A stretch of 64,000 nucleotides of DNA, taken from a virus. Made by a program: the position numbers and the translations under genes. Below the pieces are notes generated by a model. The model was not told where the DNA came from and searched no databases. It saw only the letters and a program-made list of their open reading frames with translations. The stretch covers positions 1 to 64,000 of the IMG/VR virus record IMGVR_UViG_3300049489_000707. The stretch is one strand, 5' to 3'. Shown here piece by piece: positions 1 to 16,326 of the stretch (positions are counted from its first letter, which is position 1; each line of letters starts with the position of its first letter).

Positions 1-1056
1 GATGGTCACGGTGATCTGGTCACCGGCCGACGCTGCCTGCGAAGCTGCCGCCGACTTCGGCGACTCACCCAGCTCGTTCACCGAGGTGACGTAGTAGGTG
101 TAGGTACCAGCTGCGAGGCTGGTGGTGCCAGCTGCGGTGCCGAGCGAGATCGACGGAGCTGCGGGGCCGTTGCTGCGTGCAGCTGCGGGGCGGGTCTTGC
201 CGCTCAGGAAGCGCGAGGCTTCGAGATTGACAACACCGTTGCTGACCCACTGCTTGCGCAGCTCTGCGCCGGTCGCATCCTGTGCCGAACCTGCCAGCAC
301 GATGCGCTCTTTGCCGAAGCTGATCTTGTTGTACGCCGAGAGCACCTTGGGGTCGACCAAGAGCTTGTCAGCCGAGCCGAGGTTCATGGCCGAACGGACT
401 GAGCCGTCTTCGATCATGTCCTGCGACAGGGTGCCGCCACCGCTGATGACCACGGTGTCGTCGCTGCCGTACTCGCCGAACATCAGGTCGGTCGCGTTGC
501 GCTCTGCATCCGACTGACGGATCTGCGCATCGAGGCCCAGCATCGAGGGGAGACCCGGGATGGCGAGCTGGTTGCCGTCGAACAAGCCGCTGTTCGAGAA
601 GTCAGCCTTGCCACGGAAGAGGTCGAACTCGATGTCAGCCGCGAGCTTCTTGGCTGCATCCGACGCTGCCCGCTCTTCGGCCTTCTGCCCATCGGCAGTG
701 TCGACCATGTTCGCCACGATCGAAACCCGGCGAATGTGCGAGTAGTACGCCATCGGAACCACGATACGAACGAAGTCGCTCGTCTCTTCCTGGCCGACTG
801 CGCCTTCGAGCTGAGCGGACCCGCCGAACACACCGTAGCTGAGCTGCCGGTTGAACTGGGCGAGAGTCGACTTGCAGCTGTCGACCTTGACCATCTTCTG
901 GAGCTTGATGTGCGAATCGTCGAAGGTCACGTTGTGCATGACCGGCGAGAGATCCTCGATCTGGAGGGAAGCGCCCTGCACGAGAGTGCTGGGTGCCGTG
1001 TTGTAGTTGCCGGCTTCGAGAGCCTTGAGCAGTGCTTGCGTCACTTCAGTAGCCAT
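1..1056 (-). CDS. Major capsid protein (C-terminus cut off by window edge)
   Basis: Open from the ATG at 1056 to the window edge without a stop, giving 352 residues. It should form the capsid shell. The call rests on position (directly after a scaffold-like gene in a portal-protease-scaffold order) and on a long alpha/beta protein with no enzyme motif. The N-terminus contains KALEAGNYNTAPSTL, almost repeated inside the 1212-aa protease protein at 4156-7794. The last visible part (about residues 310-352), with GTYTYYVTSVNELGES, looks like a fibronectin-III or Ig-like surface domain of the kind often attached to phage capsid proteins. The upstream sequence has GAGGAGA as ribosome binding site. 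Family assignment is inferred; a decoration protein is the alternative. Confidence 0.72.
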   Translation of the reverse strand, partial: MATEVTQALLKALEAGNYNTAPSTLVQGASLQIEDLSPVMHNVTFDDSHIKLQKMVKVDSCKSTLAQFNRQLSYGVFGGSAQLEGAVGQEETSDFVRIVVPMAYYSHIRRVSIVANMVDTADGQKAEERAASDAAKKLAADIEFDLFRGKADFSNSGLFDGNQLAIPGLPSMLGLDAQIRQSDAERNATDLMFGEYGSDDTVVISGGGTLSQDMIEDGSVRSAMNLGSADKLLVDPKVLSAYNKISFGKERIVLAGSAQDATGAELRKQWVSNGVVNLEASRFLSGKTRPAAARSNGPAAPSISLGTAAGTTSLAAGTYTYYVTSVNELGESPKSAAASQAASAGDQITVTI

Positions 1057-1091: not shown

Positions 1092-2033
1092 TTACTTGTA
1101 GTCCTCGAAGAGAGGAGCCAGTGCGTCTGCCTTGACCCGCCCGTCGTAGAAGTCGTTGATCAGCGCCCTGTCGGACTTCTTCAAGTCCGGCTTCATCGAC
1201 AGTTCCTTCAGGCGAGCGTTGATGCTTGCCTTCGTGAGCGGCGCCTTCTCTGCCTCCACCTTCGGGAGGTGAGCCACGCTGGTCACTGCCTTGCGGAGAG
1301 GCTGCTCAATCATGAGCTTGATGGCCTTCGCGAGGTTCTCATTGTCTTCGCCCTGGCTCTTCACCAGCGCTTCGAGTGCCGCGATCTTGTCGTCGGTGGC
1401 CTTCTCGTTCTCAGACTTGCCGAGCGAGCCGCCTGCCTTGACCTGTCCACCGCTCGCCTTCTTGCTGCCGGCCGAGATTTCGCTCTTCAGCGCCATCGGG
1501 TCGTCAGGCATCGGGGGTGAGGGAGGCCCTGCCGGGGGAGCGCCTGCAGGAGCAGATGCGTCCGGGGGAGCCATCGGGGGAGCGCCTGCCGAAGCATCGG
1601 GGGCGCCAGCAACAGCCGCTTTCGCCGCCAGTGCTGCCTTGATGTGCATGTCCAGCTCTTCTGGAGCCAGTTTCGAGTACTCCGCCTGCAGTGCCTCGGG
1701 GGTCAGTGCAGCTGCAGCGTCAGCAGCGGGATCCATCGCAGCGTCCGGTGCAGGAGCGCCATCGGGGGAAGCCGAAGCATCGGGTGCAGGGGCGCTCTCA
1801 CTGCCTTCCTCGGGGGAGGGGGCAGGTGCAGCGTCCGGGGGAGCGGAGGCGTCAGCCGCAGGGGACTCATCAGGCTCTTCGCCTGGTGCGTCGTCCTTCG
1901 CGAGGGCCGATTTCTCGACCTCTTCCGCCTTCACGAGCTTGTCCTTCTCGGACTCGAAGGCCTTGGACAGGTCAGTGGCGACCTCGTCCAGGAGAGCCTT
2001 CAGCTCAGATTCTTTGATTTTTGGAAAACTCAT
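1092..2033 (-). CDS. Capsid scaffold-like acidic Ala/Pro-rich protein
   Basis: 313 residues. The first 50 are a charged helix with many Lys and Glu. Residues about 50-110 and 140-175 are low-complexity Ala-Pro-Asp repeats, and the C-terminal third is again charged helix (KIAALEALVKSQGEDNENL) ending in a basic segment. Elongated helical proteins with disordered acidic linkers, encoded directly before the capsid gene, usually act as internal scaffolds that are removed or cleaved during maturation. No protease site can be assigned with confidence. The 35-base gap to the capsid gene suggests co-transcription. Function is inferred from composition and place; a minor internal head protein is possible. 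Confidence 0.55.
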   Translation of the reverse strand: MSFPKIKESELKALLDEVATDLSKAFESEKDKLVKAEEVEKSALAKDDAPGEEPDESPAADASAPPDAAPAPSPEEGSESAPAPDASASPDGAPAPDAAMDPAADAAAALTPEALQAEYSKLAPEELDMHIKAALAAKAAVAGAPDASAGAPPMAPPDASAPAGAPPAGPPSPPMPDDPMALKSEISAGSKKASGGQVKAGGSLGKSENEKATDDKIAALEALVKSQGEDNENLAKAIKLMIEQPLRKAVTSVAHLPKVEAEKAPLTKASINARLKELSMKPDLKKSDRALINDFYDGRVKADALAPLFEDYK

Positions 2034-2624: not shown

Positions 2625-2969
2625 ATGAAGGAATGCAGCCTATGCGGCCTACCTAAGCCCCTGAGTGACTTTCACGAGAGAAACGACCGGGGACCACGGG
2701 GCCACAGGAGCCACTGCGAGGCCTGTCGATCGAAGGCGTACTTCAAGAAGCGCTACCCAGTGCCGTGCGGGGTCTGCTCAGAGCACAAGCGACTGGATGG
2801 CAATGGCAGTTGCAAGAAATGCAACGCGATTCAAGGGCTTAGGCAGTGTGGAAAATGCCGGAACTTGCTGGCTGTAAGCCTGCAGTTCTACGGTCACAAG
2901 ACTACATGTCGCGATTGCTTAAGCAGGCTTCCCAAGCGCAGGCGGCGCCTTGGCCGGCTCAGCCGCTGA
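2625..2969 (+). CDS. Small multi-CxxC zinc protein
   Basis: 114 basic residues with five cysteine pairs: CSLC near the start, CEAC, CGVC, CKKC, and CGKC followed by CRDC. The first 35 residues resemble the zinc-ribbon front end found before HNH domains of phage EndoVII-type nucleases, but no HNH motif follows. It may be a nucleic-acid-binding protein or a degenerate homing nuclease. It reads against its neighbours, and its last 51 bases overlap the 3' end of the convergent GGDEF gene. Start ATG is taken from the open frame; no strong ribosome binding site is visible. Confidence 0.6.
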   Translation: MKECSLCGLPKPLSDFHERNDRGPRGHRSHCEACRSKAYFKKRYPVPCGVCSEHKRLDGNGSCKKCNAIQGLRQCGKCRNLLAVSLQFYGHKTTCRDCLSRLPKRRRRLGRLSR

Positions 2970-4151
2970 GGGCTGCTCGGGCTGTACCACTTGCACGGGG
3001 ACTGGCGCTGGAGCTGGAACCGGAAGAGGCTTCAGTGGCAGCTGGTCGGCGCCCGTCGGGATGTGCCCTTCGTACCCTGGAACCTGGCTGGCCGCGTGAG
3101 TCTTCGCCTGGCCCGGCGCTGCACCGCTGGCCTTCTTCTGACCCTTCGCGTTGATGAGAGCCAGCTCTGCGTGGTCAGGCGTGTGCCCGAAGCCGAGGCT
3201 GAGGCTTAGGTTGTGGGTGCCGCCGATTGCAGGAATCGCTTCGAGCTTGTTGCGCACCGACCTGGCGAAATGGGCTGCGTGTTCATGGCTGGGCACGAAG
3301 GCGTGGAACTCGTCGCCGCCGATGCGGAACACCTTACCATGCGCTCGACCGACAGCCTCGTCCATCGCCTCGCGAATCGCTCCGCCCATCGCTGAGATGG
3401 CCTTGTTGCCGGTCTCGAAGCCGTGGACCTTGTTGATGCCGCCGAAGTCGTTGCCGTCCATGCGGATGTGAACACCTTGCTTGGGTCGGCTGAGGAAGTC
3501 GTGGTAGGCCTTCTTGTTGCCCATGCCCTTGACCATGGAATCGGTGAAGATTTCCCCGGTGAGGTGCTTGAGAACATCAGGATGCACGTGCCCCGCCTTC
3601 ACGGCCGCACGGAGGCCCTGGAGGGCCGCATCGAGATGTGGTTCGACTTTGGACAACGACATGAAGTACTCCTCGGCTTTCTGCAGGTCGTCTTCTGCCT
3701 GCTTATAACCGAGAGTAGCAGCTCCCTGTTGTACGTTGTCAAGCATCTGCTGTAGGTCCTCAGGCGACAACGGGTGACCGTCAAGGTACGCCTTCCCGTT
3801 GTGGAATTCAACCAACTGCGCCTCGGGCACACCAACGCGGTGGTACTCAAAGCGAGACTCGGGACCGGCACTGGGAGGAGTGGGCTCTTCGTTGATCAAC
3901 TCGGGATGTTTGCCCTGGCGCATGTCCTCCATGTTGACGACCCTGTAGTACATGCTGTTGGCCAGCTTCCAGATGACACGTGAGGCGTCTGCAGGGCTCT
4001 GCTTCTGCAAGTCCTCCAGCCATCCAACGTGGTCTTCCAGGACCTCGAAGTGTTCGCTGTCCAAGTAGAACTTGCCGATGACGGTCGTATGCAGGTCATC
4101 CCCGTGTGGGTGAAGCTGACAAAGCAGGTACAGATTTTGAAGGCCTTCCAT
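2919..4151 (-). CDS. GGDEF-domain (diguanylate cyclase-like) protein in head operon
   Basis: 410 residues. Residues 1-200 are helical and not recognised. Residues about 205-338 read as a GGDEF nucleotide-cyclase domain: metal-binding Asp in RMDGNDFGGIN (230-240), an intact RIGGDEF (276-282), the following strand LSLSLGFG (315-322) and a final ALINAK (331-336). In canonical cyclases the segment is D-x-D-x-F-K-x-x-N-D...G-H-x-x-G-D; here the second Asp is Asn and the GH..GD pair is GF..GN, so nucleotide recognition may differ. No RxxD product-inhibition site precedes GGDEF. The tail from about 365 is Pro/Ala/Val-rich and disordered. It lies 4 bases after the protease gene and is probably translated with it. 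Activity is uncertain; the fold assignment is fairly secure. Confidence 0.72.
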   Translation of the reverse strand: MEGLQNLYLLCQLHPHGDDLHTTVIGKFYLDSEHFEVLEDHVGWLEDLQKQSPADASRVIWKLANSMYYRVVNMEDMRQGKHPELINEEPTPPSAGPESRFEYHRVGVPEAQLVEFHNGKAYLDGHPLSPEDLQQMLDNVQQGAATLGYKQAEDDLQKAEEYFMSLSKVEPHLDAALQGLRAAVKAGHVHPDVLKHLTGEIFTDSMVKGMGNKKAYHDFLSRPKQGVHIRMDGNDFGGINKVHGFETGNKAISAMGGAIREAMDEAVGRAHGKVFRIGGDEFHAFVPSHEHAAHFARSVRNKLEAIPAIGGTHNLSLSLGFGHTPDHAELALINAKGQKKASGAAPGQAKTHAASQVPGYEGHIPTGADQLPLKPLPVPAPAPVPVQVVQPEQPSAAEPAKAPPALGKPA

Positions 4152-4155
4152 GAGC

Positions 4156-7100
4156 TTACCCTACCTTACCCGGGACTTTTTGTCCAGGAGCGCCCCGAGG
4201 GGGTGAAACGTCGGACTCTGAAGACTCTGGGTCCCGCCCACGAGGCCCTTTGCGCTCTTCCGGCGGCACCCAGGCGGTATGGAAGGGGGCTCGCATCATC
4301 GAAACAATGGTGGCCTTGGGGTTGCGACTCTCGTGCTGGAGAGCGACAAGTCGACGCCGGGCCTCATCAACGTACCTCTCAGGCACGCCATGGCGCCGCA
4401 TCTGCAGGTCGAGCTGCTGAGGGTCCAGTGCCTGGAGCCACTTCGCAGCTTCAGGGTGGAAACGTAGCTTCGCCTCGATGCTGGCCAGGTCTCTCGGGTC
4501 ATTCGGAGAGGCGGTCATCAGGTCGTGGTACTTGATGTAGTCTGGAGTGGGCGTTGCGTGAAGGTCCTTGTCGGCGAAAGCATATCCATGGTCGATGAGC
4601 TTCATGCCCCCGGGGGTCATCATGAAGTTACCACGGTGCCGGTCATGGTTGGCTGCGATGACGTTCATCATGGTCATCTTGTGCAGCTCGCCACTGGCCA
4701 TGAGGTTCTGCAGAGTCTGCTTGTGCTCTGGATTCTCGGTGTCGAGGTGCTGGCCACCAGCAACGTTCTCGATGACAGCATGCTTCTGACCAGTGCGAGG
4801 ATGCAGGACGACGCCGGTCGGGGTCACGTACTTGCCCATGCCAAAGAAATCTCTGGCCAGGTTGTGGTACAGGCCCTCTCGGCTGGGCTCGTCAAAGTCG
4901 CTCTCGTCGTGGTTGGCCTTGACGTAGACCTTGTGGCCTTTGTTCACGGTCCAGAAGCTCTGCGCTTGGTTGATACCTGAGAAGCTGGCCTGTTTTTCAG
5001 CATCGAAGTCAAGCCCATCGACCAGGTTGCGTACGTCGTCGTGGTGGGTGTACTCAGGCACGCCATGGACAGCGTGGCTGACGATGCTGGGAGCTGCCAA
5101 TTCCTCCGGGTACTGCTGGACACTGGCCCCGCCTGCACGAGGAATCTTCATCAGGTCCTCGGTGGTCCAAGACTGGGCCTTGTTGCGGGGAACGCCGATG
5201 AGGTGCTCGGGCGTAGCGCCAAAGAAGGCCATCTGCTTCCCGCCAGGGATGTAGCCGTGGCCAGGCTTGACGGTCTTGCCGCCAAACTGCACCGTCTCTG
5301 GAATTTGATTCAGGTCCTTGTACTGATTGCCGCCCGGAGGCTGAATCAGTGCTTTCAACTTGCCTGGGTCTTGCTCCATGTCAGTGAGTGCGCCCTTCGA
5401 CAGTTCGACCGACATCTCTTCGAACTTGACAATCTGTTGCGCCTTCGCTGCCTTCTCGCTGGACGCCAACAGCTGAGGCACCAGGTAGTGGAAGTACATC
5501 AGGAGAGCCGGCATCTCGCCATACTTCTCGACCCATTGCGCGTGGGTTTTCGCGGTCTGAGCGGCCAGGTTGGTATCAATCCCAGTCTCGGATTTGTTCA
5601 TGTACGGACCCACAGCGTCCCAGAAGGGCCGGTGGTCGGTGGCCTCGTTGAACCCGCCAGTCTTCATGCCACGGCTGGCCTCGTGAGGAACGATGCCCAC
5701 CCAGTTCTTCCAGAAGGCGGGGAAAATGGCGTCTTCCGGGTTTTCCTTGAAGAGGTGCCCCCATCGAGGGTGCTGGAGCATGTGCTTGACTGCGTCGTGG
5801 TGCTGGCCGTAGTACTTGTCGATGGCCCCCATGACGTGGGAGTTGTTGGGGTTCCAGAGTACCTCATTTCGGAGGTGTCGGATGGTGGCCCCATCCTGGC
5901 GCTTGTCGAGACCGAAGAGGTAGCGGCTGAAGTGGGTGTCGGGCACGGTGACGTTGCCACCGCCCAGCATGCCGTAGGTGTAGCGAGCCGTCTTGGTCGC
6001 GAGGCCTGGGACGCTGGGGCCTGCAGTGTAGGGCCCGATGTCTGGCTGGCCTTTTCCAGTTCGAAGACGGCGCTTGTTCTCCCAGTTTCCAGCCTGGGTC
6101 TTGTGGAACATCAGCTCTTCAACAGCAGAGCGGGCGTCAGCGCGGTGGCGACCAATCAACTCAGCCAGAGAGTTGTGGAGGGTGTGATACTGGTCCATGT
6201 TCTTGAGCTTGTTGTTGGCGAGCATGAAGCCGCCAATCTCGCCCGCCTTGCGGCCAGTGAGCTTCGAGTCGATCTTGTTGCGGAGAGCGTCGCCCAGACG
6301 AGCCCAGTGCTCCGGACTGTGGTCGGGGAACTTCTGGGGCTGGTCTCGATTGAGCCAGTCGTGCTTGAGCTTGTCACTGAAGCCAGGTTGTCGTGGGTCG
6401 GCACCGGTGGCCTTCATGCTATCCACGAGATGGGCGTACATCAGCTCCTGCATGGGCACCGGCGTATTCGGGCTCAGTTGACTGAAGAGCACACCGTGCA
6501 TGATGACTTCTGGGGGCAGTGTACCAGCCTTCAGGTGGTGGTGAACCTTCGACCAGTTCTCCATGGCGTAGTCGTGGAACTTCTCGACCTTGGGGTCCGC
6601 CATGATGTTGTGGAACTTCTGGCCAGCGTCCGTAGTCTCTTTGTCCCGGCTGGGGATGTACAAGGGGAAGCTACCACGAGGGGTGTGGAGCACCCCGGTG
6701 TTCTCATCGAAGTGGGGCTTATCGATGCCCGGATTGGGCTGGACGGGCTTGCCACGAATGGTCAGAGGGCCGTCAGACTCGACCTCGACACCAGAGTCTG
6801 AATCTACCTCGGGCTCGGGGGCGGGCTTGGCAGCCTTGGGGGCGGATCCGGCAACTTTGGCCGGATTCTTGGCCGGATTCTTCGCGGGCTTGGGGGCGGC
6901 GACCTTGACCTTCTCCTTGATCTTCTTCACCAAGTACTCCTTGATGACTTCCTTCTGGGCCTTCTTGATGGTGTAGTCGTGGACCAGGTCGGCGAAGCGA
7001 TCAATGAAGCCATCGCTGGCCTCGGGGAGGCGGTTCTTCAGGAACTTCCTGAACGGGGTCTTGCGGTCCCAGTCGCGCACGGCTGCCTTCACGCGATTGC

Positions 7101-7794
7101 GCAGGCCTTGGTCTTCACGCTGCAGAGCCGAGCCGCCGGTGAGGGTTCCAGGAGCTGTGTTGTAGCTGCCGGCCTCCAGGGCCTTGCGGATCTCCGGGGA
7201 ATCGATTTCCGGCTTGCCTTCCCACTCCATCGAGCCGCCGAGCGGGGTGAAGTTGGGGTGAGCGTGCTCCTGCTTCTTGACCGTGGGGTCGTTCGGGTCG
7301 GCGATGACGCCCGAGTGGCAGCTCTTGTTGCAGGGCTTGATGGTGGCCGCAACCCGGCGAGCGATGGAGCGAAGGAGGCGGTTGCCACCCTTCTCCTTCT
7401 CCAGGGTGGTGCCCTCGATGCTGTACCGGATGAGCAGGGGCTCGCCGTTCTTCTGGTAGTCGCGAATCATCGCGGCTGCAGCGATAGCACCGGGGTGACC
7501 CGAGCTGTCGAACAGGCGGCAAATGCCGTAAATCATTGGGAGTTGGATCTTCTGCCAGTACTCCAACTGCCGGCTGTCGGTGCAGTCCTCGGGCCCGTAA
7601 ATCTTCTTGCAGAAGACCACCTTGCCGATGATGTCGTTGGCGCTGGCCCCTGCAGCGTCGTCGCCACGGTGCTCCCAGTTGAGGACGCCCAGACCTTGCT
7701 CCATGTCGGAGATGTCGCAGCCCTCTACGTCCAGGATTTCCCCACTGGAATCAATAGCCTCTGAGGCGAATACGCCGTCGATGATCATGGACAT
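4156..7794 (-). CDS. Multidomain prohead protease polyprotein with kinase-like C-terminus
   Basis: 1212 residues from the ATG at 7794, chosen because CGAGGAGAA precedes it; the frame stays open to 8184 but that stretch faces a rightward gene. Residues 1-170 look like a prohead protease: LNWEHRG (His42), IIGKV (55-59) and RYSIEG (Ser125). Residues 204-228 nearly copy the capsid protein N-terminus. Residues 290-345 are a Lys-Ala-Pro then acidic linker. Residues 595-630 resemble the helix-hairpin-helix and Asp loop of HhH-GPD glycosylases (VPGLATKTA, VPDTHFSRY). Residues about 950-1080 look kinase-like: VYVKANH (Lys959), NHDRHRGN (1049-1056), KLIDHG (1065-1070). Protease and kinase-like calls are moderately strong, the glycosylase-like one weak. 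It may cut the scaffold and itself, leaving its domains inside the capsid. Confidence 0.68.
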   Translation of the reverse strand: MSMIIDGVFASEAIDSSGEILDVEGCDISDMEQGLGVLNWEHRGDDAAGASANDIIGKVVFCKKIYGPEDCTDSRQLEYWQKIQLPMIYGICRLFDSSGHPGAIAAAAMIRDYQKNGEPLLIRYSIEGTTLEKEKGGNRLLRSIARRVAATIKPCNKSCHSGVIADPNDPTVKKQEHAHPNFTPLGGSMEWEGKPEIDSPEIRKALEAGSYNTAPGTLTGGSALQREDQGLRNRVKAAVRDWDRKTPFRKFLKNRLPEASDGFIDRFADLVHDYTIKKAQKEVIKEYLVKKIKEKVKVAAPKPAKNPAKNPAKVAGSAPKAAKPAPEPEVDSDSGVEVESDGPLTIRGKPVQPNPGIDKPHFDENTGVLHTPRGSFPLYIPSRDKETTDAGQKFHNIMADPKVEKFHDYAMENWSKVHHHLKAGTLPPEVIMHGVLFSQLSPNTPVPMQELMYAHLVDSMKATGADPRQPGFSDKLKHDWLNRDQPQKFPDHSPEHWARLGDALRNKIDSKLTGRKAGEIGGFMLANNKLKNMDQYHTLHNSLAELIGRHRADARSAVEELMFHKTQAGNWENKRRLRTGKGQPDIGPYTAGPSVPGLATKTARYTYGMLGGGNVTVPDTHFSRYLFGLDKRQDGATIRHLRNEVLWNPNNSHVMGAIDKYYGQHHDAVKHMLQHPRWGHLFKENPEDAIFPAFWKNWVGIVPHEASRGMKTGGFNEATDHRPFWDAVGPYMNKSETGIDTNLAAQTAKTHAQWVEKYGEMPALLMYFHYLVPQLLASSEKAAKAQQIVKFEEMSVELSKGALTDMEQDPGKLKALIQPPGGNQYKDLNQIPETVQFGGKTVKPGHGYIPGGKQMAFFGATPEHLIGVPRNKAQSWTTEDLMKIPRAGGASVQQYPEELAAPSIVSHAVHGVPEYTHHDDVRNLVDGLDFDAEKQASFSGINQAQSFWTVNKGHKVYVKANHDESDFDEPSREGLYHNLARDFFGMGKYVTPTGVVLHPRTGQKHAVIENVAGGQHLDTENPEHKQTLQNLMASGELHKMTMMNVIAANHDRHRGNFMMTPGGMKLIDHGYAFADKDLHATPTPDYIKYHDLMTASPNDPRDLASIEAKLRFHPEAAKWLQALDPQQLDLQMRRHGVPERYVDEARRRLVALQHESRNPKATIVSMMRAPFHTAWVPPEERKGPRGRDPESSESDVSPPRGAPGQKVPGKVG

Positions 7795-8152: not shown

Positions 8153-8434
8153 TTGGTCACTAAGACCGCCAAGTACCGAGTCACCTACCGGAGATTCAAC
8201 GAGTACGTCGACACGGGCACCCATCTGACCAACGTCCACTACGTGCTGGAGTGCGACGTTGTGGCGCTCGATGCCACAGACGCCATAGCCAAGGCCTCGG
8301 TCGCTTTCATGCCGCTGGCCCACTGGTCTGGCGACTGGAAGGTCCGCATGCTTCGTGCCCCGCAAGAGGTCGAATTTGTTGGGTCTCAGCCCGATCGATC
8401 CACAATCGTGAATCTGACGAAGATGGGCACTTGA
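8153..8434 (+). CDS. Hypothetical protein of small-gene island (TTG start)
   Basis: 93 residues with an alternating hydrophobic pattern: KYRVTYRRFNEYVDT, then VHYVLECDVVALDATDAIAKA, then WKVRMLRAPQEVEFVG. This suggests a small beta-alpha-beta domain. An in-frame stop at 8129-8131 limits the start, and the first possible initiator is TTG at 8153; the ribosome binding site is weak, so the start is uncertain. Not recognised. Confidence 0.5.
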   Translation: MVTKTAKYRVTYRRFNEYVDTGTHLTNVHYVLECDVVALDATDAIAKASVAFMPLAHWSGDWKVRMLRAPQEVEFVGSQPDRSTIVNLTKMGT

Positions 8435-8459
8435 CGGCAGAGATCTGTTCATATAGAAC
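8431..8459 (+). promoter_or_regulatory. Sigma70-type promoter for island gene at 8466
   Basis: TTGACG, 17-base spacer, TAGAAC. The -35 box is embedded in GGCACTTGACG, which resembles the 12-bp repeats of the 23.5-kb hub. The -10 box ends only 6 bases before the ATG at 8466, so the transcript would be leaderless or nearly so. Confidence 0.5.
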
Positions 8460-8465
8460 ACGCCC

Positions 8466-8681
8466 ATGAAAACCACCTACACCTCCTTCATCACCTGTTA
8501 CGAGTGCTCCGAAGACCTCGAAGTGGAGTTCAAGCGCCTGTGGACGGAAGACGGCGAAGAGTACGCTGAGCCCGTGTCTGGCAGCTGGGACTGCCCCAAC
8601 TGTGGTGACGAAGACTTCATGGGCGGCTGTGGCGATGATGGCGGTAGGGCGGCTGAGAAGCGTGCGATGATGGCTGACTGA
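8466..8681 (+). CDS. Small acidic zinc-ribbon protein
   Basis: 71 residues with CYEC near the N-terminus and CPNC about 35 residues later, the four cysteines of a zinc ribbon, then a Gly/Asp-rich segment and an AEKRAMM tail. Strongly acidic. It sits immediately after a sigma70-type promoter, so it may be made early from a nearly leaderless transcript. Function unknown. Confidence 0.62.
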   Translation: MKTTYTSFITCYECSEDLEVEFKRLWTEDGEEYAEPVSGSWDCPNCGDEDFMGGCGDDGGRAAEKRAMMAD

Positions 8682-8688
8682 GCCATCG

Positions 8689-8779
8689 AGGGTCTCGCAG
8701 GGTGGTGGATAGCTGCTTGGGTTGACGAACCCAAACTCCCATAAAGAGGGCGGCTACACCCACCATTCTGCGAGGCCCT
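8689..8779 (+). ncRNA. Candidate structured RNA or cruciform element (91 nt)
   Basis: Nested complementarity fills most of a 156-base gap between genes. P1 pairs 8689-8708 with 8760-8779 (17 of 20 positions). P2 pairs TAGCTGC (8710-8716) with GCGGCTA (8750-8756), including one G-T wobble. P3 is the perfect hairpin TTGGGTT-GACG-AACCCAA (8717-8734). The segment 8735-8749 is left unpaired. There is no T-run, so it is not an ordinary terminator, and it does not match tRNA geometry. It ends where a -35 box begins. It could be a 3' UTR structure, a small RNA or a protein-binding DNA element. Confidence 0.4.
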
Positions 8780-8807
8780 TGACGGTACGAAAGTCTTCTG
8801 ATAGAAG
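8779..8807 (+). promoter_or_regulatory. Sigma70-type promoter for island genes from 8838
   Basis: TTGACG (8779-8784), 17-base spacer, TAGAAG (8802-8807), about 30 bases before the ATG at 8838, which has AAAGGAG. It probably drives the overlapping gene string 8838-10430. Confidence 0.55.
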
Positions 8808-8837
8808 TGGGGCGCAGTTCAACCAAAGGAGCACACA

Positions 8838-9179
8838 ATGGGCTGGGACGGAAGCGACGCATGGAAGACGAAGAAGGACGTGGTGGCTGAGCAGCTCCGC
8901 CCGGGTCGTTTCGACGGCCTCGTGGTCATCGCCAGCAAGAGCACCCGCTCGGGGCTCTGGATGGTCATGGAGAATCCCTCCACCGGCCTCCGTGCCATCT
9001 TCTTCGACCTCATCGAGAAACAGGGCGGGCGCTACTACGTCAAGGGCATGGCTGAGTCGGAGTGCCCGTACTACTTCGACTGCCCCCAGGCGCTGGTCGA
9101 CATGGTACCCCCGACCGCTGACAAGGCCTTCATGTTCAACCTCAAGTGGCGCTCGATGCGTGCGGAGGCCCGGCCGTGA
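8838..9179 (+). CDS. Hypothetical island protein, 113 aa
   Basis: Begins MGWDGSDAW and holds a compact beta-rich domain: DGLVVIASKSTRSGLWMVMENPS, then RAIFFDLIEKQGGRYYVKGM. Proteins of this shape, with a Gly-Trp-Asp start and a predicted small beta barrel, occur as conserved unknowns in many phages. AAAGGAG precedes the ATG with 8-base spacing. Its TGA overlaps the GTG of the next gene. Function not known. Confidence 0.65.
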   Translation: MGWDGSDAWKTKKDVVAEQLRPGRFDGLVVIASKSTRSGLWMVMENPSTGLRAIFFDLIEKQGGRYYVKGMAESECPYYFDCPQALVDMVPPTADKAFMFNLKWRSMRAEARP

Positions 9180-9361
9180 ACTTGAACGACCTCGGAACGA
9201 CCGGCCTGGTCGCCTACGTGCAGGCTGGCAAGAATGGAAGGGCGAGGAACATGCGCCGAGTTCACGCTGAACGGGTGCTGGCAACCAGGTACGCCTCGCA
9301 TAGCTTCCTCGTCATCGAGCGCTTCCGCAACATCCTCTGGGCACCCAAGGGGCGGCCATGA
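9176..9361 (+). CDS. Hypothetical island protein, 61 aa (GTG start)
   Basis: 61 basic residues with no recognised domain. The GTG at 9176 overlaps the TGA of the preceding gene and the stop overlaps the ATG of the next gene, so it is translationally coupled on both sides. RNMRRVHAERVLATRY suggests an amphipathic basic helix that could bind nucleic acid. An in-frame ATG at 9146 inside the upstream gene is less likely. Confidence 0.5.
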   Translation: MNLNDLGTTGLVAYVQAGKNGRARNMRRVHAERVLATRYASHSFLVIERFRNILWAPKGRP

Positions 9362-9558
9362 ACTACACCTTCGCCATCGAGAATCTCAAGTCGGAGATTC
9401 CCCACATGGACAACCACAACCTCCTCAACGCCCTTCACGGTGAGCTGTACAACATCAACTGCAGCAACTACAACTTCACGAAAGAAGAGGCAGACTACAT
9501 CCGGGAGCGGGTCCGCCTCCTGCACAATGAGGTGCTCGATCGAATGGAGAGGCCATGA
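9358..9558 (+). CDS. Hypothetical helical protein, 66 aa
   Basis: 66 residues, two predicted helices: NLLNALHGELYNINCS and EEADYIRERVRLLHNEVLDRM. Acidic, no membrane segment. ATGA overlaps at both ends couple it to its neighbours. Not recognised. Confidence 0.55.
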   Translation: MNYTFAIENLKSEIPHMDNHNLLNALHGELYNINCSNYNFTKEEADYIRERVRLLHNEVLDRMERP

Positions 9559-10037
9559 AGGACGACTACAAGAAGCTCAGCCACGAGTGGGGCTCCAAGC
9601 GCCGGAAGGCTGACAGCCGGGCGGCCAAGAGCACCCTGAAGAAACCCACCAAGGAAGAGCTGGAGTGGGACGGCATGTGCCCGGCTGGGAAGCACGGGCT
9701 CGACTTCCAGCGCCAGCCCTGCGATCTCTGTGCCAAGGCGGAGCCACAGCCCTTTCGGCTTCCGCGCCATCTCGTCAACCACGCCATCGCTTCCTACGAC
9801 ACGGTCAATGCCACTGGTGTTCTGCGCCTGGCCAAAGCCCTCAAGGTGGCCTACGAAGAACTCGATGAAGTTCGGGCTCAGCTCATGATGGAGAAGATCC
9901 GCGTTCGGATGGCCAACCCTCCCGACAAGTGCGAGCGGTGTGGTGTGACCCCCGCTCTGCGGACTGAGACCCACGGCCTGTTCTGGAATGGCAACGACTG
10001 GGTCTGTGACGACTGTGCAGAGGAGACTCAGCAATGA
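9555..10037 (+). CDS. Hypothetical zinc-binding protein, 160 aa
   Basis: N-terminal 35 residues are highly basic (GSKRRKADSRAAKSTLKK). CPAGKHG with CDLC forms one possible zinc site and a C-terminal CERC ... CDDC pair forms a second, with a long central helix (GVLRLAKALKVAYEELDEV). This layout suggests a nucleic-acid or protein adaptor. It is coupled by ATGA to both neighbours. No family recognised. Confidence 0.6.
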   Translation: MKDDYKKLSHEWGSKRRKADSRAAKSTLKKPTKEELEWDGMCPAGKHGLDFQRQPCDLCAKAEPQPFRLPRHLVNHAIASYDTVNATGVLRLAKALKVAYEELDEVRAQLMMEKIRVRMANPPDKCERCGVTPALRTETHGLFWNGNDWVCDDCAEETQQ

Positions 10038-10237
10038 TACCCAAGGTCTACATCCACCTGAAGACGGGGAATGAGTATCTGGTCTTGCATCGTGGCGTCA
10101 TCAATGCTACGAACGCCCAGAACGGGGAGCAGATGGTTCTGTACACCCCGTACACGACGAACCCGGGTCACAATCCCTGGTACGTGAGAAGTGAAGTAGA
10201 GTTCGACCTCAAATTCAAGGAGAAAGACAATGGATGA
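10034..10237 (+). CDS. DUF1653-like small beta-barrel protein
   Basis: 67 residues beginning KVYIHLKTGNEYLVLHRGVINATN, then EQMVLYTPYT and WYVRSEVEFDLKF. The order tyrosine-containing first strand, central VLYTP strand and final W-x-R-x-x-x-x-F matches small DUF1653-type proteins as I know them. Those are common in bacteria and phages but have no established activity. The stop overlaps the next start. Assignment is by pattern only. Confidence 0.55.
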   Translation: MIPKVYIHLKTGNEYLVLHRGVINATNAQNGEQMVLYTPYTTNPGHNPWYVRSEVEFDLKFKEKDNG

Positions 10238-10430
10238 CATCGAGTTGCTGAAGTTGGAGAACAAGGGCCTGCGGTTGCAGAATGAGAACCTGCAGGATGA
10301 ATTGAGGATTCTTCGGCGGTACCGACAGCTCATTGAGCGCAGCACTCAAATCGCTGCTGCAATGGAGAGCGTGCCAGTTTCGGTAGACCAGATGACGGTC
10401 TACCTTGGCGCTACCCGCGCTGGGACTTGA
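10230..10430 (+). CDS. Small coiled-coil protein, last gene of rightward island
   Basis: 66 residues. Residues 3-45 form a Leu/Asn heptad coiled coil (ELLKLENKGLRLQNENLQDE), followed by a short hydrophobic end. AAGGAGAAAGACA precedes the ATG. The last 20 bases overlap the 3' end of the convergent Mu F-like gene, showing how tightly the island is fitted into the head operon. A dimerising small regulator or antitermination-like factor is possible but unproven. Confidence 0.6.
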   Translation: MDDIELLKLENKGLRLQNENLQDELRILRRYRQLIERSTQIAAAMESVPVSVDQMTVYLGATRAGT

Positions 10431-11172
10431 ACTCGTCGTAGCCGGGGCTCTTGTATTGGACTCGGCCGGCAGCGTTGAATCCATACCCCGGCATCAGGGT
10501 CGTCAAGACACATCGACAGTGTGGGTGTAGGCCGCCCACTTTTGGAGTGGGGTCGCCCTTCTTGTGGTATCCACTGCCAAGCTCGCTGAGCTTCCAGACT
10601 CGTGGGGTGACCTGGTCGGGCTGAACGTGGAGCTTGGTACACTCCGAACATCGCACGCCATCCCTGACCGTCACGAAGAACACCGTGGGGTCATCGATGC
10701 CTGCAGCCGCGTTGCTGCGTACGATGCCGTCCATGATGCTGGTGTTTCGCACTACCGTGGACTCAGTCTCGAAGATGCGCTTGAGGTCGCGTGTGGCCTC
10801 ACCCATGACCTCGTACAGCTTGCCGCCCAGGACCGTCTCGATGTTGGTATCGACGCCCTTGTTGCCGGCTTCCTGGAGGAACGCCTGTACCGCCTGTACC
10901 GTCTTGGCCTTGGCACGCTCCTTGGTCGCATCGATGTAGCTGTTGGAAATCTTCAGGAGCGTCTTGAGCACGTCCTGGTCGGGACGTACACCTTCCTCGG
11001 CTGCTGCCAGGTCGAAGATTCCCTTGAGCGTCAGGTCGGGGCGGTAGGCGATGTACAGGCGCTTGCCCGTGGGGTGCTTGTCCCCAAGGGTGTGGGAGCG
11101 AATCTTTTCGAACAGCTTTTCGACCGCTCCTTCGATGAGCTTGACGGCCGCCGGGCCCAAACGTGGCTTCAT
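10411..11172 (-). CDS. Head morphogenesis (Mu gpF-like minor head) protein
   Basis: 253 residues. The C-terminal half has the signature of the Mu F/SPP1 gp7 minor head family: CSECTKLHVQPDQ, followed after about 35 residues by LHPHCRCVLTTL. Paired Cys and His in this arrangement are typical of the family. Such proteins bind the portal and help start head assembly, and some enter the cell with DNA. It follows the portal gene after 3 bases, the usual order, which supports the call. Confidence 0.78.
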   Translation of the reverse strand: MKPRLGPAAVKLIEGAVEKLFEKIRSHTLGDKHPTGKRLYIAYRPDLTLKGIFDLAAAEEGVRPDQDVLKTLLKISNSYIDATKERAKAKTVQAVQAFLQEAGNKGVDTNIETVLGGKLYEVMGEATRDLKRIFETESTVVRNTSIMDGIVRSNAAAGIDDPTVFFVTVRDGVRCSECTKLHVQPDQVTPRVWKLSELGSGYHKKGDPTPKVGGLHPHCRCVLTTLMPGYGFNAAGRVQYKSPGYDEFKSQRG

Positions 11173-11175
11173 GGG

Positions 11176-13359
11176 TTACCCCTTCTTCTTGGCCGTGGGC
11201 TTGTGCTTGTCGGCAACGTCGATGATTTCCTTCAAGGCTTCCTTGGACTCCGCCTCAAAGGCCTGGAGGGCCTTCTTGACGAACATGCGCTGTTGGGCCA
11301 AGAGCTTCCGGCGGCTAGTCGGCATCTGAGCCTCCGACTTGCTGAGGAGGCCGCTGAGCTGGTCCAGGCTGCGAGTCAAATCTTGAGGCTGATCGTCTGC
11401 TGTCGGCGAGGCATCGTCTCCACCAGGCTGGGGCTGAGCGCCAGCGTCCTGGGGGCCATCCCCAGCATCAGCGCCGTCGCCAGGATCTTGGCCGCCTCCA
11501 CCGTCGCCACCGCCGTCTCCACCACCTTGGCCAGGAGGCGGTTGCTGGGCTGCCTGCTGCTGAGCCATCTCGGCTTGCTGCTGAGCTTGGAGGAGCTGCA
11601 TCTGGGTGAAGTAGTTCGGGTTGTTGAGGAAGTCATAGCGGGGATCCTTGCTGGCACCCTTCATGTTGAAGAAGTGCTCCATGATGAGGCCCTGAGGCAC
11701 GTACTTGTCGAGAACTGCCTGCCACTGCGGGTTGAGGAGGAACTGACCACCCCACTCCTTGCCGACGGGCTTCTTCTCGACCTTGTCAAGCACTTCGTCC
11801 ATCGACATGTGGACTGCCATGTCTTGCTGGAGGCGTGTGGACTCTTTCTCTGCCGTCTCGACATCGAGGCCCACGAACTTGAGGCTGCAGGTCTTCGACA
11901 GCTCTTCGTCGATGAGAGGCAGAATCTTCGAGTTCATGAAGTTCTGGAACTGAGCCAGAAGTGGCCGAATGCCAACGTCGCGGTGGGCTTCGAGCTTGTA
12001 CTCGTTGTTCGACTCGCTCAGGGCCTGGTTGTTGGTACCGCGCGACAGGTGGGCGTAGCCAGGCAGCTCTTCCGGGCTCATCTGGAAGCCGGAGAGGATG
12101 ACGCGGGCGTTGGTGTCCGACAGGTACTGGAACTCCATGTCGCGGGAGCTGTTGTCGATGGGGTACCAGCCAATGTCGTCGTCGGTGCCAACACCGAAGA
12201 TGGGCATGCGCCAGGCGTTGCCGACCGAGTTGATGGAGGCCTGGAACTGCTGGCGGATGTGCTTGATGACGCCATCGTCAGCGTCATCCGACTTGATGAC
12301 AATCATGCCACGAGCAGCTCGACCAGACTGGAAGTAGAGCTTGTTGTGGTTGCCGATATTGATGTGCGTGGTGACGGCCGTGATGATGGTGTCGAGCGGG
12401 GTCAGCGGGTAGCCGTCCAGCTCCACGTCGGTCACTGGGTAGAAGTTGTGAACGAGACACTCTTCAGCGGTGAAGGCCTGCACTGGGCGGCCGGCGATGA
12501 CCTGCACCCAGGCGTACTCATCGTCCTGGAAGCGCTCGGGCTCCAGGTCGGTGTTCTTCACCTGCTCCAGAAGCTTGCGGGCTTGCTTACGGACAGCGTC
12601 ACCTGCTTCCTTCTGAGGTGCGGCACGGTAGATGGTGCCTGCGTCGATTGGGCGAATGGAGTGGAACTTCTTCTTGCCGTCCATGCCCATCGAGTAGATA
12701 GCTTCGACAGCCACACGGCCGAAGAGCACTGCATTGCGGGCGCACATGTGCATGAACTGACCGAAGCTCAGGGCGTCGGTGTCCTTCCAGCCCCTGGTCT
12801 CGCCACAGCTCAGAATCTTCAGTTCAGCTGCGCTGATGCGGTCCTGCAGCTTCTTCTTCTCTTCGTCGTTCAACTTCTCCAGGAGGCCGGGCTCGGGCTC
12901 AATTTTGAAACCGGTGCTGAAGCGGTCTGGCTGAGGACGGCCGAAGCTGCTCAGCTGGTTCGAGCGGGCATTGCAGATGGCTGCGACCAGGTCGTCCTGG
13001 ATGCCGATGCGCTTCAGAACCTCGTCGGGCAGGAGGCGCTGTTTGACCTTGTAGAGGCTTTGGTAGGTGTTATTGAGGCTGGGGTCTGTGTCGAACGCCA
13101 GGCGCTCGATGGTGTCACCGGGGCCGTTGAGCAGGTTCATCACCGACTTGACAAGCGGGCTCATGCCGGCAACACGCTTGTTCTCAGCCTCGACTTGCTC
13201 CTTGCTCAGCTCACCAGCGCCAAACGGGTCGGTAAGAGCCACGGAGATCTGCTTTTTTGAGCCTCCGGACGGACGCTCACGAGGGAGCAGCGACTCGATG
13301 AGAGACTTCGCCATAGGGCTCAGTTCGTCAGACTCGATGCTGTTGCGTTTCTTGGCCAT
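11176..13359 (-). CDS. Portal protein
   Basis: 727 residues, the dodecameric ring at the packaging vertex. Support comes from its place two genes after the terminase large subunit and next to the Mu F-like gene, its length, and portal-like segments: an N-terminal helical region, the wing and stem stretch with HSIRPIDAGTIYR and DEYAWVQVIAGRPVQAF, and FQMSPEELPGYAHLSRG near residue 430. The C-terminal 150 residues are low-complexity Gln/Gly/Asp-rich and probably disordered, then a basic helix. The start at 13359 overlaps no gene; 3 bases separate it from the 328-aa gene. Confidence 0.8.
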   Translation of the reverse strand: MAKKRNSIESDELSPMAKSLIESLLPRERPSGGSKKQISVALTDPFGAGELSKEQVEAENKRVAGMSPLVKSVMNLLNGPGDTIERLAFDTDPSLNNTYQSLYKVKQRLLPDEVLKRIGIQDDLVAAICNARSNQLSSFGRPQPDRFSTGFKIEPEPGLLEKLNDEEKKKLQDRISAAELKILSCGETRGWKDTDALSFGQFMHMCARNAVLFGRVAVEAIYSMGMDGKKKFHSIRPIDAGTIYRAAPQKEAGDAVRKQARKLLEQVKNTDLEPERFQDDEYAWVQVIAGRPVQAFTAEECLVHNFYPVTDVELDGYPLTPLDTIITAVTTHINIGNHNKLYFQSGRAARGMIVIKSDDADDGVIKHIRQQFQASINSVGNAWRMPIFGVGTDDDIGWYPIDNSSRDMEFQYLSDTNARVILSGFQMSPEELPGYAHLSRGTNNQALSESNNEYKLEAHRDVGIRPLLAQFQNFMNSKILPLIDEELSKTCSLKFVGLDVETAEKESTRLQQDMAVHMSMDEVLDKVEKKPVGKEWGGQFLLNPQWQAVLDKYVPQGLIMEHFFNMKGASKDPRYDFLNNPNYFTQMQLLQAQQQAEMAQQQAAQQPPPGQGGGDGGGDGGGGQDPGDGADAGDGPQDAGAQPQPGGDDASPTADDQPQDLTRSLDQLSGLLSKSEAQMPTSRRKLLAQQRMFVKKALQAFEAESKEALKEIIDVADKHKPTAKKKG

Positions 13360-14391: not shown

Positions 14392-16326
14392 TTACCCGTC
14401 GAAGACGAACTTGCCCCGGCGGACGGTTTTGGTGGTACCGCCATCGGAGACTTCCCCCGTCAAGCTGGCGATCTGCTCCTTCAGGAAGTTTGCTGGCTGG
14501 CCTGGGCGAAGGTTGCCGGTGGCCTCAGCGATGGTCTTTCGAATGTCCTCCAGGTCGGAGGACTTGCTGTTGGGGATGTTGATTTTCCCCTTGGGGGCGA
14601 AGACGTTCATCACCATGTACCGCATGGCGTCGACCTCATCGTCCTCGTCCTTGTCGGGCTCTTCCGAGATGTGACCACCAGCGTCCGTCATGAAGTGGTA
14701 CTTCTCGATGCGGCTGGCCAGGAACTCGCAGCCAGGGTCGTCCTTCAACAGGAACATCTGGGGCACTCCGACAGCCGGCATGAGCTTCATGCGGACCACC
14801 TCGATGCCTGCCTTCACTGACCCTGGATACTTCGACCACTCGCGCATGTTGAAGCCCTTGCGCTTGAAGGTCTTGATGTCGGCCGGGTAGGCTTCGTCGC
14901 CGAAGATGGTTGGAGAGTAGGTCTTCAGAGGCTCGCAGACGGCCACCTTCTCATCCAGCTCCAGGTTGGGCATCGCGATGACCGTGAAGATGAACATGAA
15001 CTGCCCGAAGACGGCAGCCACGGTGACGGCGAAGTTGTGGGTGAAGCCGAAGTCCATGCCAGCGTAGAAGCGGGCACCCTTGTCCAGCATTAGCTGAAGG
15101 AGCTGGGCCTTCGTCATGTGCTGGTCGTGCTTCTCGCCAGTAATCATCTCCGCCATCTGAGAGGCGGTCTTCATGTGGGTTTCGCGCTCGAACTTGGGGT
15201 AAATCAAGCCGCTGGCATCGGGCTTCCGGCAAAGGAGCTGGGTCTGCACTGCGGCAGCGCTGCTCTGCTTGAAGCTGTTGATGATGGAGGAGATTGGTTT
15301 GAGCATCGTGCTCTGGCTGGTCTGATGAGTGGCCAAACGGCCCTTACACGCAGAGAACAGCGGGCACTTCTTGCAGCCGGCGAATCCTTCCCGGGGGTAG
15401 AACTTCTTCTGGTTCTGTTCATCAAGGAGCTTGTAGTCTTCCTCGGTGATGTGGCGCAGAGTGGAGTCGTTGATGTAGTAGGTCTGCTTGGGCTTCTCGG
15501 GCTCGTGTCGTTCCGGGAGGCAGGCCTGAGTGATATCAATGACGTTCCAGTGCCTGACGTGCAGGCCTGTCTCGGAACTGTTGGCGATCTCTGTCTGCAC
15601 CAAGCCGTAGCTGAACTTCCGGGTGGAGGTCAGCAGAGTGATGGGCTGCAGCCCATCCCGTGGGTCGGGGATATGCTTCGCCTCTTCGTAGGCTCTGATG
15701 TGCTGCTTGGGAACAACGTCCACCTCGTCCACGCACAGGAACTCGGTGTGTGCCGAGTTGGCGCCTTGCATGGTGCAGAGAACGATTTGGATGTAGTTGT
15801 ACTTGCGCTCATAGGCCATCTTGGCCTCAGAGGATAGGTCCAACCACTCCTTCTCGGTCAGGCTGCGCCCGGTCTCGCTGTTGTAGTACCGACAGATTTC
15901 AATCTTCTTGACGTTCTGACCGATACGGAAGTCGCGAATGTATGGGCTGGCGAAGAAGTCTCGCACGTACTCCTGGCTCTTCTTCGACTGGTCGAAGATG
16001 GCCGCCATGTGAGCGACGTTGCGGCCCAGATGGAGCACCTGCAGCACTTCGAGCACAGAGGCGCCGAGGGTCTTGAAACCGCCACGGTTGGCGTAGGCCA
16101 TCACACGGCTGAAGTCTGGATCGTTGTTGAGACGGGCCTTGTTGTAGACCTCCCAAATCATGTCCATCGGCGAGCTATTGCTCTCGTCGCTAACGATGGT
16201 GTCGGGGAAGAAGAGCTTTGGGCCCAAGAAGACGCGGATCCACCGAGCCAGAGCTTCCTTCGTCTCACAAGGAGTGAAGAGAAGCTGGCGGATCTCGTCG
16301 TCTCTGCTCGGGACTAAATCGCTCAT
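14392..16326 (-). CDS. terL: Terminase large subunit
   Basis: 644 residues. The ATPase half has a Walker A-like NRGGFKTLGAS (80-90) and Walker B FLCVDEVD (196-203). The RNase H-like nuclease half has AGMDFGFTHN (Asp425), FGDEAYPADIKTF and DEDDEVDAMRY as acidic sites. It packages genome DNA through the portal. Between the halves sits a cysteine cluster CKKCPLFSACKGRL (318-331), with another Cys at 366, probably binding zinc or an iron-sulfur cluster; this is not part of the T4 gp17 core. Its ATG overlaps the stop of the HNH gene by 4 bases. The small subunit is three genes upstream. Confidence 0.9.
   Translation of the reverse strand: MSDLVPSRDDEIRQLLFTPCETKEALARWIRVFLGPKLFFPDTIVSDESNSSPMDMIWEVYNKARLNNDPDFSRVMAYANRGGFKTLGASVLEVLQVLHLGRNVAHMAAIFDQSKKSQEYVRDFFASPYIRDFRIGQNVKKIEICRYYNSETGRSLTEKEWLDLSSEAKMAYERKYNYIQIVLCTMQGANSAHTEFLCVDEVDVVPKQHIRAYEEAKHIPDPRDGLQPITLLTSTRKFSYGLVQTEIANSSETGLHVRHWNVIDITQACLPERHEPEKPKQTYYINDSTLRHITEEDYKLLDEQNQKKFYPREGFAGCKKCPLFSACKGRLATHQTSQSTMLKPISSIINSFKQSSAAAVQTQLLCRKPDASGLIYPKFERETHMKTASQMAEMITGEKHDQHMTKAQLLQLMLDKGARFYAGMDFGFTHNFAVTVAAVFGQFMFIFTVIAMPNLELDEKVAVCEPLKTYSPTIFGDEAYPADIKTFKRKGFNMREWSKYPGSVKAGIEVVRMKLMPAVGVPQMFLLKDDPGCEFLASRIEKYHFMTDAGGHISEEPDKDEDDEVDAMRYMVMNVFAPKGKINIPNSKSSDLEDIRKTIAEATGNLRPGQPANFLKEQIASLTGEVSDGGTTKTVRRGKFVFDG

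Follow-up and report, generated by a model that had tools for sequence, protein, structure and literature searches.

A phage prohead protease fused to HhH-GPD-like and PI3K-like kinase domains: a candidate self-processing head protein

The concept of multi-enzyme head proteins that are proposed to be injected into the host is already known. The polyvalent proteins of phages and conjugative elements are encoded among head genes, combine several enzymes, with kinase, GNAT, GGDEF, ParB and peptidase domains among them, and have been proposed to be packaged and injected; Iyer et al. (2017, PMC5512222) state that the assemblin-like peptidase of these proteins always lies at the C-terminus, and their text mentions neither HipA nor glycosylase. 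Similarly, T4 Alt, MuF-toxin fusions and the ejection proteins of phage SPN3US are packaged and are either processed by the prohead protease or fused to a head protein. Here, we describe the 1212-aa protein P0002, in which, in contrast to these examples, the cargo is fused to the protease itself. Its gene lies in a window of 64,000 nucleotides, positions 1 to 64,000 of the 168,933-bp virus record IMGVR_UViG_3300049489_000707. Judged by its sequence, P0002 resembles polyvalent proteins in that at least two effector-type domains share a single chain encoded with the portal–terminase head genes, whereas its protease, an apparent prohead protease, is N-terminal and an HhH-GPD-like domain is its constant partner.

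The closest described relative is a protein of Myxococcus phage Mx1 (WNM70322, OR576727) of 1239 aa, which shares 41.5% identity over 95% of the length as well as gene order and domains: a ‘nucleotide cyclase’ follows the ‘putative prohead protease’, the major capsid protein comes later and a second kinase is annotated nearby. However, the Mx1 record names the protease alone, leaving the HhH-GPD-like domain, the kinase and the capsid-like motif unannotated, and GGDEF is divided between two genes. Phage SPO1 (Herelleviridae) has a homologous protease (gp3.2), a copy of the capsid N-terminus after the protease domain, a related capsid protein (gp6.1) and a scaffold (gp3.3) rich in the pattern [LIVMF]xK[AST], but its 256-aa protease is without HhH, kinase and GGDEF domains. 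On balance, we consider it probable that P0002 is a ‘polyvalent’ head protein that cuts itself into pieces, which are packaged and probably injected. An N-terminal prohead protease serving as carrier, together with an HhH-GPD module, appears to be new, and in the literature searched we found no earlier description of the constant HhH-GPD-like partner, the exchange of kinase and cyclase or the shared predicted cleavage code.

Domain architecture of P0002

The original prediction had read positions 4156–7794 as a single 1212-aa protein with a protease-like front, a copy of the capsid N-terminus, an HhH-GPD-like segment and a kinase-like end. The gene itself is confirmed: the open reading frame runs on the minus strand from an ATG at 7794 to a stop at 4156, has an upstream ribosome-binding site (GAGGAG) and shows a coding-type guanine–cytosine content by codon position (0.62/0.41/0.78). 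A GTG at 8184 was considered as an earlier start and found to be unneeded, the alignment of the relatives beginning at about ATG 7794. The predicted signature residues all lie where they had been placed, namely H42, S125, VPGLATKTA...VPDTHFSRY (594–625), K959, NHDRHRGN (1049–1056) and KLIDHG (1065–1070). In an alignment of 18 relatives, H42, S125, K601, D619, H621 and R624 are invariant (18/18), so that these features are not due to chance.

Homology identifies residues 1–170 as an apparent prohead protease and apparently the phage’s own maturation protease. PHROG 1028 (‘head maturation protease’) was matched in 6/10 members (best 2.2e-5), comparison with SPO1 gp3.2 by hhalign gave 96.9% (E 1.3e-10), and a search of the viral fold library BFVD with the N-terminal model matched many prohead proteases. 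Past this domain, residues 201–229 (EIRKALEAGSYNTAPGTLTGGSALQREDQ) are 62% identical to the N-terminus of the major capsid protein by tblastn, and a motif profile search matched, in each phage, only the capsid protein and the protease fusion protein. Both the protease-like front and the capsid-like copy had thus been recognized correctly. That the copy is a peculiarity of the fusion was considered and dropped: in SPO1, the protease carries LDKSLEAGYEVDPEKMEGGDVFRKESL past the protease domain and the capsid protein carries LNKALEAGHTVNPLDLEGGGAFRVESL near its start. Because SPO1 shares this arrangement, the motif is an ancient trait of SPO1-type heads, and it probably marks a protease site. A published account of N-terminal processing in SPO1-group capsids was not found in the openly accessible literature.

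The best-conserved part of P0002 is the central domain (residues 345–800). Its VPGLATKTARYTYGMLGGGNVTVPDTHFSRY stretch aligns with endonuclease III (EndoIII), and hhalign against a profile of 11 EndoIII/MutY proteins gave 83% probability (E 8.6e-6) with a score of 47.3, whereas none of 30 column-shuffled controls exceeded 19.3 and the reversed profile scored 17.7. The domain contains a hairpin followed by a Gly/Pro...Asp motif with a candidate catalytic Asp; K601 and D619 align with Lys120 and Asp138 of EndoIII. This profile and motif evidence suggests an HhH-GPD-like glycosylase fold, and the module is probably a DNA-binding enzyme of the glycosylase/AP (apurinic/apyrimidinic)-lyase type. In addition, inteins interrupt the motif SPNTPVPxQELMY (441–454) in four phages (L064, L070, L081, L011/L033); they occupy two insertion points separated by about 10 residues, and L064 has an intein at each. 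Inteins are usually located at indispensable sites.

For the C-terminal part, the predicted structure of residues 862–1180 (predicted local distance difference test, pLDDT, 82.6; predicted template modelling score 0.78) found PI3K catalytic domains as top Foldseek matches in the PDB, with E-values from 1.8e-5 and modest template modelling scores of 0.3–0.5. The Pfam profile PI3_PI4_kinase reached 26.3 in P0002, slightly below the cut-off of 27.1, and exceeded the cut-off in the relative L035 and in a second kinase protein of this phage. Together with the D/N/D residues, which are kept in the 18 relatives’ kinase domains inspected, these matches bear out the proposed kinase-like end. A viral scan seeded with the kinase added no loci to the known members. 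The best BFVD match to the kinase-free model was A0A6J5L1V5, a 584-aa protein named as a PI3K/PI4K-domain protein; therefore, shorter protease–kinase fusions may already exist undescribed in databases.

Module exchange and the GGDEF link among relatives

The family, a group of large Myxococcus-phage-like viruses, was represented by 33 IMG/VR loci and one contig filed as a Saccharibacteria metagenome-assembled genome (34 in total, some loci duplicating one phage). Protease and HhH core share one open reading frame in 33/34 of these loci, as they do in Mx1 and in the window. What follows them varies: the C-terminus is a kinase in 19 loci, a GGDEF module in eight and absent in two, the rest being cut by contig ends or split, and the C-terminal type switches at least three times on the family tree. 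In all 18 assessable loci with a kinase or an empty C-terminus, a GGDEF gene is directly next, and overall the GGDEF module is fused or adjoining in 26/26 assessable loci. Since GGDEF is fused to the protease–HhH protein in some relatives and adjoins it elsewhere, the neighbouring gene P0003 belongs to the same unit. These sequences directly show the domains, the invariant active-site residues, the near-universal fusion and the swapping of C-terminal modules, and they tie GGDEF to the unit through fusion and synteny. The GGDEF neighbour, the C-terminal swaps and the age of the capsid-like copy as an SPO1-type feature had been overlooked in the original prediction.

Further variation was observed within the family. 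P0003 keeps the RIGGDEF signature, and the usual GD past FxxINxxxG is GN, which differs from the fused relatives, so that its product may differ. L066 and L070 carry an extra ParB_N domain ahead of the capsid-like motif. In L079 (8603–11644), an HhH core is joined to DUF5661 and GNAT domains without a protease, and a kinase gene lies elsewhere in the locus. In L035 (ORF 9026–12919), an ART-like insert (YHIT...GL..., recognized by eye) lies at about residues 775–900 between HhH core and kinase. The Saccharibacteria contig (L056, CALMSM010000181.1) carries a protease–HhH–kinase gene, a GGDEF gene and a capsid gene and is likely a phage contig.

Predicted processing and alternative roles

A candidate cleavage pattern, [LIVMF]xK[AST], emerged from the head proteins. 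It occurs 11 times in the SPO1 scaffold against 1.3 expected and nine times in the scaffold-like P0004 against 1.8 expected, and the capsid motif holds one such site. When all genes of this genome were scanned for the narrower [LIVMF]xK[AS], P0004 ranked second of 157. The top rank went to a 334-aa protein with a GNAT-like stretch (G000:C1:142929-143933; L018:18929-19933, minus strand), which is perhaps another internal head protein. Within the fusion protein, the listing of conserved Lys columns, which runs to residue 800, contains 19 columns, three of which fit the pattern (K204, K734 and K800); the others do so in at most four rows. All three lie within segments of pLDDT <50. The kinase part was inspected separately for the pattern, and no further widely conserved site was found there.

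The account that follows infers where the chain is cut, that it is packaged and injected, and what its enzymes do and act upon. We propose that P0002 is a 135-kDa self-processing polyprotein containing the head-maturation protease of an SPO1-type capsid. The protease part would bring the whole chain into the prohead, because every prohead protease must go there, and packaging of P0002 would follow, the prohead being the required workplace of such an enzyme. Inside, the protease would cut capsid and scaffold at [LIVMF]-x-K-[A/S/T] and its own chain at the same type of site, at K204, K734 and about K800, which would free the HhH-GPD-like enzyme and the PI3K/HipA-like kinase. The freed enzymes would remain in the head alongside the co-encoded GGDEF cyclase and, at infection, leave together with the DNA to serve as early effectors or to protect DNA. 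A precedent is gp245 of SPN3US, which removes its C-terminal propeptide by self-cleavage and processes further head proteins at the same motif (PMC10052503). That the pieces would survive in the mature head and be injected is suggested only by the analogous cases of polyvalent proteins, MuF fusions and T4 Alt.

Several points weigh against this proposal. The cut-site rule is statistical and was devised while inspecting these very proteins, then checked by shuffles and the all-gene scan. In the fusion protein, the pattern is no more frequent than expected by chance (4 vs 3.9 expected), and only conservation and placement single out its sites. A Foldseek search of the PDB with the model of residues 1–862 gave no significant match (best sensible match EndoIII 8a5c, E 0.72), so that the full fold of the central domain is unproven. 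Fold searches thus agreed with the predicted protease (BFVD) and kinase (PI3K), whereas the HhH-GPD-like segment stands on its EndoIII/MutY profile match and motif. Profile searches of the PDB with the whole family, the central domain or the kinase as queries also returned nothing significant, and Pfam PF00730 did not match the fusion protein at E<=10. Given the PF00730 result and the PDB fold search, the domain is called HhH-GPD-like here rather than a Pfam member. Moreover, processing could destroy the cargo instead of preserving it, and an essential role in assembly would also explain why the HhH core is nearly universal. Altogether, the original prediction is partly supported: its three domain assignments stand, and its idea that self-cleavage could leave enzyme modules in the capsid for delivery into the host is plausible.

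Among the alternatives, a structural or assembly role is the most probable, although we regard it as unlikely. The HhH core and the C-terminal part would then act in the prohead only, for instance as a DNA-binding core, a scaffold extension or a kinase of head proteins, and would be destroyed or expelled at maturation. Lambda gpC, which carries Nu3, offers a comparable case. The presence of the HhH core in every protease-type member, the conserved helices after the capsid-like motif and the removal of their own C-terminal propeptides by prohead proteases of other phages all suit such a role. However, a separate scaffold-like gene (P0004) exists, a scaffold would not need the residues conserved here (K601/D619 and the D/N/D set of the kinase), kinase and cyclase can take each other’s place or be missing, and in L079 the HhH core occurs with GNAT and without a protease.

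Alternatively, the HhH-GPD-like domain could be a base-hypermodifying enzyme resembling aGPT-pyrophosphorylases (aGPT-PPlases), which are members of the HhH-GPD superfamily, and could act on the DNA of the phage while it is being packaged, the kinase serving as the phosphorylating partner. Minor unidentified pyrimidines have been reported in Mx1 DNA (PMC6070905). Against this stands that aGPT-PPlase/HMUDK family profiles found no match in this genome, in Mx1, in the fusion protein or in its relatives; the hypermodification profiles PF18746, PF18723, PF18749 and PF00303 gave no matches, PF18749 being the unrelated family SNAD3. Furthermore, the kinase is PI3K-like and not of the P-loop type, and two members lack it while eight have GGDEF in its place, so that we judge this role improbable. 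Equally improbable is a virion-carried enzyme that merely repairs or cuts DNA at entry, with kinase and GGDEF as accessory or decayed parts: the invariant Lys/Asp pair, as in bifunctional EndoIII, and the inteins at the conserved motif, which suggest an indispensable site, agree with it, but the kinase has kept its catalytic residues, and GGDEF its signature, as well.

Returning to the self-processing head protein, we put forward its widest form only tentatively: in a lineage of tailed phages, the prohead protease would be the carrier of a self-cleaving polyprotein, and shell maturation would free a DNA glycosylase/lyase, a PI3K-like kinase and a cyclic-dinucleotide synthase (fused or from the neighbouring gene) in the capsid. 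Once injected, these enzymes would reset the state of the host DNA and the second-messenger signalling of the host from the very start of infection.

Gene neighbourhood and implications

The genes on the minus strand follow the order terminase, 328-aa protein, portal, MuF-like protein, P0002, GGDEF protein, 148-aa protein, scaffold-like protein and major capsid protein (Table 1). P0002 thereby occupies the place of a prohead protease gene, between the portal and the scaffold/capsid genes. Between the MuF-like gene and P0002, the Mx1 counterpart of window positions 8200–10400 consists of four genes on the opposite strand. Elsewhere in the genome, a 1494-aa protein (G000:C1:146465-150949; L014:2466-6950, minus strand) combines NUDIX, GNAT-like and PI3K-like kinase domains with a part that looks lytic-transglycosylase-like by eye; this is the second kinase protein mentioned above. 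Its Mx1 counterpart is two genes, ‘NUDIX hydrolase’ and ‘kinase’, and it is probably a second polyvalent head protein.

Table 1 Features of the P0002 locus (window positions).
Feature	Position	Strand	Basis or remark
Major capsid protein, cut by window edge	1..1056	-	motif near N-terminus
P0004, Ala/Pro/Glu-rich scaffold-like protein	1092..2033	-	[LIVMF]xK[AST] site enrichment
P0003, separate GGDEF protein	2919..4151	-	begins 4 bases past P0002 stop; fused to protease-HhH protein in 8 relatives
Fusion protein P0002, 1212 aa: protease / capsid-like motif / HhH-GPD-like core / PI3K-like kinase	4156..7794	-	ORF and orthologues
PI3K/HipA-like kinase domain, residues 890-1170	4285..5127	-	K959, D1051, N1056, D1068
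HhH-GPD-like core, residues 345-800	5395..6762	-	in all members
K800, predicted cleavage site 3	5395..5397	-	HhH-core/kinase boundary; full pattern 12/18; ELSKG in P0002
K734, predicted cleavage site 2	5593..5595	-	Lys 18/18, full pattern 15/18; disordered loop 733-743, near HhH-core end
Helix-hairpin-helix and catalytic-Asp motif (594-629)	5908..6015	-	K601, D619 invariant; aligned to EndoIII VDTH-ending stretch
SPNTPVPMQELMYA motif (441-454)	6433..6474	-	intein points in relatives
Conserved helical stretch (222-295) and Lys/Ala/Pro-rich disordered linker (297-343)	6766..7131	-	
Copy of major-capsid N-terminal motif, residues 201-229	7108..7194	-	tblastn, motif profile
K204, predicted self-cleavage site 1	7183..7185	-	pattern 18/18; low-pLDDT segment 171-229; protease/HhH boundary
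Prohead (SPO1/assemblin-like) serine protease domain, residues 1-170	7285..7794	-	homology; H42/S125 invariant
MuF-like minor head protein (weak)	10411..11172	-	
Portal protein	11176..13359	-	
Terminase large subunit	14392..16326	-	

The HhH core is a phage domain that is conserved, has active-site residues of the glycosylase type and goes unrecognized by Pfam. If the proposed processing is true, capsid maturation and effector arming would be one reaction, and the shared Lys-Ala/Ser/Thr site would predict which proteins ride within SPO1-type heads. The host of Mx1, Myxococcus xanthus, is a laboratory model, which makes packaging, cut sites and the effects of an injected cyclase or kinase directly testable.

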